From positions 1-64,000 of the forward strand of contig VEPM01000009.1 in assembly GCA_012026795.1 (NCBI GenBank): 64,000 nt of DNA, written 5' to 3'. Shown in pieces: positions 46,844 to 49,929 of the stretch. The DNA comes from Candidatus Methanoperedens sp. GTDB taxonomy: Archaea > Halobacteriota > Methanosarcinia > Methanosarcinales > Methanoperedenaceae. How positions within the stretch are numbered: position 1 is the first letter of the stretch; every line of letters starts with the position of its first letter. The translations under genes and the position numbers were made by a program. The notes beneath the pieces are model-generated. The model worked only from the letters and a program-made list of their open reading frames with translations, did no database searches and was not told the origin of the DNA.

Positions 46844-47602
46844 TTATCCTGTTCCGGACGCCAATTTTATCTGTGTACTTAATGATTTCAAAACTCTGTC
46901 CCTGATGATATTGGCTTCAGGGCCTGTCCGTATCCTGGGGCGCGTCAATTTGACATCGAATATATCTTTAACCTTACCGGGGCGGGCTGACATGACAACA
47001 ACCCTGTCTCCGAGATAAACCGCTTCATCAACACTATGGGTAACAAAAAGTACGCTTATGTGTTCAGTCTCCCAGATCCTGAGTAATTCTCCCTGCATGA
47101 GATTCCTTGTCTGGGCATCAAGCGCCCCGAACGGTTCATCCATCAATAGCAGCTTCGGATTATTTGCATAAGCCCGGGCTATCCCCACTCTCTGTTTCAT
47201 CCCCCCTGATAATTCATCGGGGTAATGGTTCTCAAACCCGTTCAAACCTACAAGGTCGATATAGTGTTTTGAGATACTTTCACATTCCGCTTTGGTTATT
47301 CCTTTTACCTGGGGACCGAATTCGATATTCTCTTTCACAGTCCTCCAGGGGAATAATGCGTATTCCTGGAACACAAAACCACATTCCTTATTTACCCCGT
47401 TTATTTTTTTACCATCAAGGGATATAATCCCATCATCCGGGGCAACAAGCCCTGCTGCAAGGCGAAGGATTGTCGTTTTTCCGCATCCGCTGGGGCCAAG
47501 AAGGCATACAAATTCCCCATGCTCAACCTCAAAATTTACATCCAGGAGCGCCTGGAAATTATTGTATTTCTTGGAAACCGAGCTAAGGACTAATCTACCC
47601 AA
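46844..47602 (-). CDS. ABC transporter ATP-binding protein, NitT/TauT family
   Basis: 252 residues. Walker A GPSGCGKTT near 36-44, signature LSGGMKQRVGIARA near 133, Walker B LLLMDEPFGALDAQT and the switch His in FVTHSVDEA. The closest families are SsuB/TauB/NrtD, importers of sulfonates, nitrate, cyanate or thiamine precursors. It is the last gene of the binding protein-permease-ATPase operon and overlaps the permease by 13 bases. Confidence 0.93.
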   Translation of the reverse strand: MGRLVLSSVSKKYNNFQALLDVNFEVEHGEFVCLLGPSGCGKTTILRLAAGLVAPDDGIISLDGKKINGVNKECGFVFQEYALFPWRTVKENIEFGPQVKGITKAECESISKHYIDLVGLNGFENHYPDELSGGMKQRVGIARAYANNPKLLLMDEPFGALDAQTRNLMQGELLRIWETEHISVLFVTHSVDEAVYLGDRVVVMSARPGKVKDIFDVKLTRPRIRTGPEANIIRDRVLKSLSTQIKLASGTG

Positions 47603-48396
47603 TTTATGAACCTCCTCTGAAAAAGAAGTATGCTTATATTCATAATATATCCGATCACGCCTATTACTATCATTCCTGCCACCATTTCCGAATAGCGGCC
47701 AAGGTCCCCCATGTTCCAGATAAAATAACCAAGGCCAACCGGACTTTTGATAACCATCTCAGCTGCTACAATTGCCATCCATCCCACGCCAAGGCCGATC
47801 CTCAATCCGGTCATAATGGATGGAAGTGCAGAAGGAATAACCACTTTTGTTACGATCATTGATTCTGAGGCCCCGAGTGTTTTTGCAGCATCGATAAGTT
47901 GCAGGTCTGTTGACTTCACTCCCTGGATGGTGTTAAGGATAATTGGGAAAACCACACCAATAAAAACAATAAAAATTGACCCGCCTGATACGAAAATAAA
48001 TATTGATAGCGGTATCCATGCCATAGGAGGCATATTTCGGACGATTTCAATTATGGGATTAAATAAATTTCCGAGAAACTTTGAATATCCTACACCAATA
48101 CCCACAGGTACTCCAATGATAAATGCAATTATCCCGCCCTCGATCACCCGCATAAGACTTGCATAAACATGGTTAATTATACCATATGTGAAGGAGGGGC
48201 CGTATATTCTGGTGAACATTGAACCAACAAGTGCATACCATGTTTCAACAGGTGTGGGAATATCCCTGAGGCGAATGAAAGGAATATTGAAAATATCATT
48301 CCTTGCAAGTATAACCAGCATCTGCCATACAAGAGTAAAAACGATAAGGGAAAGGATGTTTATTAACAATCCTCTTTTCCCGGTCTCGAATTTCAT
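47590..48396 (-). CDS. ABC transporter permease, NitT/TauT family
   Basis: 268 residues with about six membrane helices. The cytoplasmic coupling loop is canonical (DAAKTLGASESMIVTKVVIP, followed by SALPSIMTGLRIGLGVGW). Its ATG overlaps the stop of the binding protein (TAATG) and its end overlaps the ATPase gene, so all three are translationally coupled. Confidence 0.93.
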   Translation of the reverse strand: MKFETGKRGLLINILSLIVFTLVWQMLVILARNDIFNIPFIRLRDIPTPVETWYALVGSMFTRIYGPSFTYGIINHVYASLMRVIEGGIIAFIIGVPVGIGVGYSKFLGNLFNPIIEIVRNMPPMAWIPLSIFIFVSGGSIFIVFIGVVFPIILNTIQGVKSTDLQLIDAAKTLGASESMIVTKVVIPSALPSIMTGLRIGLGVGWMAIVAAEMVIKSPVGLGYFIWNMGDLGRYSEMVAGMIVIGVIGYIMNISILLFQRRFINWVD

Positions 48397-49496
48397 TAAT
48401 AGCTGACCTTAAGTCCTTCCTTATCTGCCTCCATGAGGAAAAGAACATGCTGTATCGTCCCCTGGCCCGGGAATCCCACAGTCTTTCCTTGCAGGTCCTT
48501 TAATGAAGTTACGTTGCTGGCAACAACGATAACCGACCCTTCATTATTCATCCCGGCTATAACTCCGACTTTTGTATCATTATTGGAAAAATCATTGCTA
48601 TTGATCCGGTGAATAATTACCGGGGGTATTCCCAGGCTCCCGGCATCGACCGTATTTCCTTTAAAGCCCTGCTGCATTTCAAAAGCGCCATTCTGGAACG
48701 GGGCGCCTTCGGCTATAACAATATTTATTCCTAAATCCCTGTAATATCCTTTTTGCCATCCTACATAGAATGGAAGTTCATGGATATCATTTACAAGGTA
48801 ACCATATCGGATGTTTACAGGTTCTTTCAATGCAATTTTAGAAATATTTTCATCTTTATTATTGACCGCCCACTCAACGTAATTATTTGTTACGAGCGAA
48901 TTGGCATAATCCTGTGCATTCTTGTATCCCGACATGTTCCATTTCTTCATGTCAAAAATCCCAAAATCCTGTATCTTCTGGATAAAAGTAGTTGTTCCCT
49001 CAATATTGGTATTATAAACAAATTCCACATCAGCAAGGCTCAGGTTCGCAGCGACCGGATCTGTCATTCCGCCAAATTGCATTGTATAATTAATCAATTG
49101 TTCATGGTCGGGCGAATCGATTTGCTTTGCATTATTGATATATTCGACAGATTTTAACTGCACAAGTGCCATGCGCTTTAAGATCTCGTCAGAATTATTG
49201 GTCTTCTTATACCAGTCGTCATCATACGCTACAACACAGCAGGGATGATCAGTCCATATTTTTCCTGAAAATATCAAATTTTTTCCATATCCTTTGGTAA
49301 CAGCTATTGCTGGATATGGTTCCCACATAATGAACCCGGCAATTTCACCGGTCCCCAATCTCTGCACCATTTCCTGTCCGCTCATTTTCACAAGGTTAAT
49401 TGGCTCACTGGCCCCGGAAGTTTTTTTGCTTTCAAGGCATCCGGCTACAAAAATTACTATAATCACAATAAATAAGATCTTCATCAAATTTTTCAT
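48396..49496 (-). CDS. Substrate-binding lipoprotein, NitT/TauT family, apparently circularly permuted
   Basis: 366 residues: signal peptide with lipobox VAGCLES (Cys near 20), then a segment that in normal family members is the second half (NLVKMSGQEMVQRLGTGEIA, GFIMWEPYP, IWTDHPCCVVAYDDDW). Only after some 230 residues comes what is normally the beginning (NIRYGYLVNDIHELPFYVGW, DAGSLGIPPVIIHRI, SLKDLQGKTVGFPGQGTIQH). The chain stops at EGLKVSY, exactly where the canonical protein would continue into the segment placed here at the N-terminus. The substrate (nitrate, sulfonate, thiamine precursor or other) cannot be told. See the finding on permutation. Confidence 0.8.
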   Translation of the reverse strand: MKNLMKILFIVIIVIFVAGCLESKKTSGASEPINLVKMSGQEMVQRLGTGEIAGFIMWEPYPAIAVTKGYGKNLIFSGKIWTDHPCCVVAYDDDWYKKTNNSDEILKRMALVQLKSVEYINNAKQIDSPDHEQLINYTMQFGGMTDPVAANLSLADVEFVYNTNIEGTTTFIQKIQDFGIFDMKKWNMSGYKNAQDYANSLVTNNYVEWAVNNKDENISKIALKEPVNIRYGYLVNDIHELPFYVGWQKGYYRDLGINIVIAEGAPFQNGAFEMQQGFKGNTVDAGSLGIPPVIIHRINSNDFSNNDTKVGVIAGMNNEGSVIVVASNVTSLKDLQGKTVGFPGQGTIQHVLFLMEADKEGLKVSY

Positions 49497-49551: not shown

Positions 49552-49929
49552 CTATTTAACGGTTTCCGTTTTTTCATCATTCGCGTGAGCAAGCCTTTTC
49601 CACAATCTGATTATCCTATCACTATGGTCTTCCGTCTTAAAATCCACAGAAAATATCCCATCATGAATATGTACAGTTGCCTCAAGGATCGCGCAGCGGT
49701 AATATTTTTCCTCGTTACCTGAAAGATTAATGATGCTTTTTACGTGCTTTACAAGTCCAGCACTTTCCATAAGTTTGAGCTTTCTATATACGGTTGCAAG
49801 GGGTATGTCAAGCTCCTGGCTCAACTGGCTGGCAGAACATTCTTTTTTTGATGTAAGCAACAATATCTTCTGAGAGTACTTGTTTGCAAGTAGATCAAAA
49901 AACACCTCATTGCCAGGTTTTGAGTTCAT
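49552..49929 (-). CDS. Winged-helix transcription regulator (ArsR-like)
   Basis: 125 residues. A winged helix occupies about residues 8-75 (CSASQLSQELDIPLATVYRK is the helix-turn-helix). The C-terminal 40 residues are a short effector or dimer segment. It follows the small membrane protein by six bases on the same strand. Pairs of such regulators and small membrane proteins are common in haloarchaea and methanogens. It lies between the ABC transporter and the MoxR operon and may control either. Confidence 0.75.
   Translation of the reverse strand: MNSKPGNEVFFDLLANKYSQKILLLTSKKECSASQLSQELDIPLATVYRKLKLMESAGLVKHVKSIINLSGNEEKYYRCAILEATVHIHDGIFSVDFKTEDHSDRIIRLWKRLAHANDEKTETVK

Follow-up and report, generated by a model that had tools for sequence, protein, structure and literature searches.

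A circularly permuted putative substrate-binding lipoprotein of the NitT/TauT type in Candidatus Methanoperedens and other archaea

Our comparisons of a gene at 48396-49496 in a 64,000-nucleotide stretch of DNA from the methane-oxidizing archaeon Candidatus Methanoperedens (the window, that is, the whole stretch analyzed) indicate that its product is a functional ABC-importer receptor in the NitT/TauT (NMT1/NMT1_2) class with a circularly permuted chain; we put the probability of this reading at roughly 0.93. Most likely, an ordinary Venus-flytrap receptor was re-cut once inside its lobe II. The resulting family is old, conserved, and present in several archaeal lineages.

Swapped order of the two halves and the surrounding operon

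The gene, its parts, and its neighbors are as follows.

48396..49496, (-) strand: permuted NitT/TauT-type substrate-binding lipoprotein, whole coding sequence, 366 aa plus stop
49404..49496, (-) strand: signal peptide, lipobox (FVAGC, Cys20), and short tether, residues 1-31
48882..49403, (-) strand: back part of the canonical fold (residues 32 to ~205), with INLVKMSGQEMVQRL..WEPYP..HPCC.. and then the C-terminal helices; NMT1_2 positions 152-227, canonical profile positions 179-321
48822..48881, (-) strand: new linker between the two original termini, ~residues 206-225, placed by alignments with approximate boundaries
48399..48821, (-) strand: front part of the canonical fold (residues 226-366, up to the seam), VNIRYGYLVNDIHELPFYVGWQ.. 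to ..GKTVGFPGQGTIQHVLFLMEADKEGLKVSY; NMT1 positions 5-108, canonical profile positions 40-175
47590..48396, (-) strand: ABC permease (BPD_transp_1), whose first base is also the final base of the binding-protein gene
46844..47602, (-) strand: ABC ATPase (Pfam ABC_tran), with a 13-base overlap with the permease gene
49552..49929, (-) strand: winged-helix regulator (HTH_20/TrmB-like), 55 bases upstream from the binding-protein gene

The N-terminus carries the secretion signal and lipobox of NitT/TauT binding proteins (MKNLMKILFIVIIVIFVAGC), and residues 1-31 join the back part of the fold directly: after the lipobox the chain continues at once with INLVKMSGQEMVQRLGTGEIAGFIMWEPYP...HPCC, which belongs to the NitT/TauT back part and corresponds to CmpA/NrtA residues from ~190 on. 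Residues 5-27 show a weak match to canonical profile positions 17-40. Pfam matches fall in the swapped order, with NMT1_2 at residues 31-105 (profile positions 152-227 of 252) and NMT1 at residues 241-352 (profile positions 5-108 of 216). The same arrangement was obtained with a normal-order profile built from 20 homologues of related archaea, for which residues 34-183 correspond to positions 179-321 and residues 218-364 to positions 40-175. Because these half-matches are complementary, each stretch of the fold is present once, and only about three profile positions are lost at the seam.

Rotation of the sequence supports the same reading. In its native order, the protein gave two swapped half-matches of 59 and 65 bits against the normal-order profile, whereas after rotation at the seam a single unbroken match spanned profile positions 45-321 and scored 140 bits. 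When the cut point was slid every five residues along the protein, the score rose from 65 bits at the native start to a plateau of 138 to 142 bits for cuts at ~residues 127-227. For each of the 49 distinct permuted proteins, the rotated form scored higher than the native one (on average, 157 versus 75 bits), which places the swapped order far beyond chance. Both halves thus have NitT/TauT homology, covering the whole domain, but the front part (the start of lobe I and the first unit of lobe II) precedes the back part neither in the window protein nor in any of its family relatives, and by sequence comparison the protein is a permuted relative of NitT/TauT proteins rather than a standard member. 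A preliminary description of this DNA had proposed such a permutation and had placed the seam at EGLKVSY; both proposals are borne out. The seam directly follows EGLKVSY and directly precedes INLVKM, and the alignment after rotation closes there with a gap of two or three residues.

Twenty positions show almost no variation in either order and are drawn from both halves (including H239, G270, G289, and Q349 together with P60, S77, H84, and C87), which suggests that the same pocket has been retained. The HPCC motif lies at 49236-49247 in the window (residues 84-87); its His84 and second Cys (Cys87) do not vary among archaeal relatives of either the permuted or the normal order, its first Cys is substituted in much of a kinase-linked branch of the family described below, and a ligand or redox role for the motif is possible.

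The permease and ATPase genes follow with overlapping ends; the operon is intact, as described earlier, and the locus has the cognate partners of a NitT/TauT binding protein; the two neighbors are kept in nearly all ABC-type loci whose contig reaches that far. The winged-helix regulator is a possible further member of the operon, and a BLAST comparison placed this gene at the same position at only one of the other Methanoperedens loci examined. At another locus (L085:3920-4825), a leaderless normal-order NMT1_2 protein of ~300 aa, without a signal peptide, is encoded directly upstream from the permuted gene.

Conservation and origin of the permuted order

The permuted order was found in 20 loci of a species-level genome collection at 72 to 94% identity. 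An ABC-type permuted protein with the same order is encoded in 26 of the 34 Methanoperedenaceae genomes (60 to 100% identity), and 30 of 393 sampled genomes of the host's phylum carry a full or near-full permuted match. Within the host's taxonomic order, normal-order relatives occur nearly everywhere, and full-length permuted matches are confined to the Methanoperedenaceae and three genomes of one other family. Viral contigs gave no relative of either the permuted or the archaeal normal-order profile, and plasmid records gave NitT/TauT matches in two pieces only (taken regardless of piece order), none of the 15 listed covering the query in one piece. Pairwise dN/dS values of the window gene against seven close relatives were ~0.04 to 0.13 for the whole gene and similarly low in each half. 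By its occurrence in the phylum sample, the permuted order predates the genus.

These data bear on two local explanations raised at the outset. The order could reflect a collapsed tandem repeat in the assembly, for which the odd order itself, and nothing more, speaks; the chance of this is negligible, since the same order recurs in many independent assemblies, some of one or few contigs, at 28 to 94% protein identity. It could also result from decay of the gene or from a deletion between two tandem binding-protein genes in the host genome, and tandem binding-protein genes do occur, as in the L085 arrangement. This is extremely improbable, because an event private to one genome cannot account for an order shared by 26 of 34 family genomes and recurring in the phylum sample; moreover, the fold is complete and single copy, and both halves are under purifying selection. 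A tandem-gene deletion in a distant ancestor, on the other hand, is the same as the explanation preferred here. A two-domain family cut short was considered as well and was rejected, since the whole domain is present exactly once. No open reading frame in the fetched loci held more than one copy of either half, and no duplication intermediate was seen among them.

When 49 permuted proteins, rotated beforehand, were placed in one tree with 20 normal-order proteins, all permuted proteins formed one clade (support, 100/99); the normal-order set was picked by similarity from one taxonomic order and does not fix the nearest normal-order sister. Separate trees of each half gave the same split, again with the permuted proteins as one clade. 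The normal order is that of the bacterial and yeast members with solved structures, and the permuted order is therefore taken as derived. A single permutation event suffices to account for the family.

We also considered whether the protein is a chimera, in which parts of different binding-protein genes were joined in swapped order. PDB sequence searches with the permuted protein match mainly one half at a time, the front part being closest to TauA/SsuA (taurine/sulfonate) and the back part to NrtA/CmpA (nitrate/bicarbonate), and a similar idea was raised for the treponemal protein TpMglB-2 by its authors (PMC4990184). A normal-order archaeal relative behaves similarly, however, with taurine proteins best for its front part and nitrate/bicarbonate proteins among others for its back part, so that this pattern is no sign of a chimera. 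Each half alone yields the same permuted/normal split, and neither the separate trees nor the separate PDB searches of the halves gave a signal of chimeric origin, which we regard as unlikely.

For a circular permutation of one ancestral gene, the simplest route would start with a tandem duplication in frame, giving signal-A-B-A-B, from which the first A and the last B were then lost. In the reading preferred here, the new termini lie within lobe II, where the break separates the first strand-helix unit (GKTVGFPGQGTIQ..EADKEG) from the strand that comes after it (INLVKM); the signal peptide and lipobox stand at the new N-terminus, and a linker of ~20 residues bridges the two original ends. This permutation would have happened once, before the family spread in the archaeal phylum.

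Predicted structure and the kinase-linked branch

An AlphaFold2 model based on an 11-sequence alignment had a pLDDT of 84.7 and a pTM of 0.81, predicting a well-ordered fold. Foldseek searches against the PDB gave no match with an E value of ≤0.001, and the query TM-score was at most 0.36 among the 50 matches listed, which were mostly binding proteins and related receptor domains. The weak PDB match would fit a known fold in an unusual connectivity, and we regard it as supportive only; a normal-order relative folded without an alignment reached a pLDDT of 45 and was unusable as a Foldseek control, so the weak match is not attributable to connectivity alone.

Relatives of the protein have nitrate, bicarbonate, taurine, sulfonates, and thiamine precursors as ligands. 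By analogy with any type II binding protein, the window protein most likely functions in binding and transport: a small ligand would be bound between the lobes, which would close on it, and the protein would then dock to the neighboring permease and ATPase and hand the ligand over. In the permuted chain, the lobes and hinge strands should stay in place with one linker added between the old ends, while the membrane or lipid tether would move from lobe I to lobe II.

One side branch of the permuted clade has a membrane anchor in place of the lipobox. Two paralogues of this branch (28 to 32% identity to the window protein) are present in the host genome, G000, and are encoded directly after dCache histidine kinases on contigs C26 (L114:5146-8856) and C14 (L115:5068-7951). 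The C26 operon encodes a winged-helix protein, a response regulator, a dCache-HAMP-HisKA kinase, and the permuted protein, the last two genes overlapping by four bases, and the pairing with a kinase is also found in other genomes (loci L049, L052, L075, and L076). The permuted proteins of this branch are probably sensor subunits. Broken kinase-linked copies with split frames or a stop codon were seen in two further genomes (G008, contig C226, 1004-1992; G004, contig C43, 123116-123502), suggesting local loss of this branch.

The kinase-linked branch, which sits with dCache kinases and without a transporter, might be taken to mean that the permuted fold no longer serves as an importer receptor and has become, for example, purely sensory or structural. 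For the branch to which the window protein belongs, this is quite improbable, as its members have a lipobox and an adjacent permease and ATPase in nearly all informative loci. A different and more tentative idea, which we consider doubtful, is that the re-cut itself altered function: a tether on lobe II might have changed the coupling to the membrane and let one branch sense ligand for dCache histidine kinases. If true, this would be a receptor-kinase arrangement built on a permuted binding protein. Whether a shift of the tether alters what a binding protein can do is testable in the kinase-linked branch.

Comparison with known binding proteins

The permuted family resembles standard NitT/TauT proteins (NMT1_2, PF13379; NMT1, PF09084; SsuA, TauA, NrtA, and CmpA) in the homology of both halves, in the parts of the type II fold, in the lipoprotein signal, and in the permease and ATPase neighbors; it differs from them in its swapped parts, in termini predicted to lie inside lobe II, and in the linker. 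SaoX (NCBIfam NF040735) shows weak similarity to the WEPYP..HPCC part only (residues 33-121), and the window protein falls far below the cutoff of the SaoX profile (38 versus 300 bits).

Other ABC binding proteins are known to be permuted in nature. In Treponema pallidum, the sugar-binding lipoprotein TpMglB-2 (Tp0684), termed "Type Ic / Cluster Bc," has a naturally permuted chain, binds glucose, and alters its shape (PMC4990184). Like the archaeal proteins, it is an ABC binding protein with a lipid anchor whose complete fold is circularly permuted, and the permutation is conserved family-wide; unlike them, it is a type I (cluster B) sugar-binding protein from an unrelated family and is cut in the N lobe, whereas the window protein matched NMT1 families only. 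The two permutations are presumably independent. The glycine-betaine-binding OpuAC/ProX proteins, molybdate-binding proteins, and CysB are also related by permutation (CPSARST, PMC2395249). As in the archaeal case, circular permutation separates binding-protein folds of type II, but their relationship is known from structures at <24% identity. OpuAC-type proteins are cut at the start of lobe II. The OpuAC profile gave no match in the window protein and a marginal one in a relative (residues 21-63 to profile positions 28-72), and the offset of this weak match suggests that the archaeal cut may lie ~27 residues further into lobe II.

In the open-access literature we found no report of a permuted NitT/TauT protein or of this cut site. 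Permuted proteins appear as two half-matches in profile searches and may escape structure searches that depend on chain order, so that databases probably annotate such proteins as partial or odd NMT1 members. It is uncommon for a natural permutation to come with detectable sequence homology, a conserved operon, and many relatives in normal order, which makes this archaeal family a good natural experiment on how well a two-lobed receptor withstands re-cutting.
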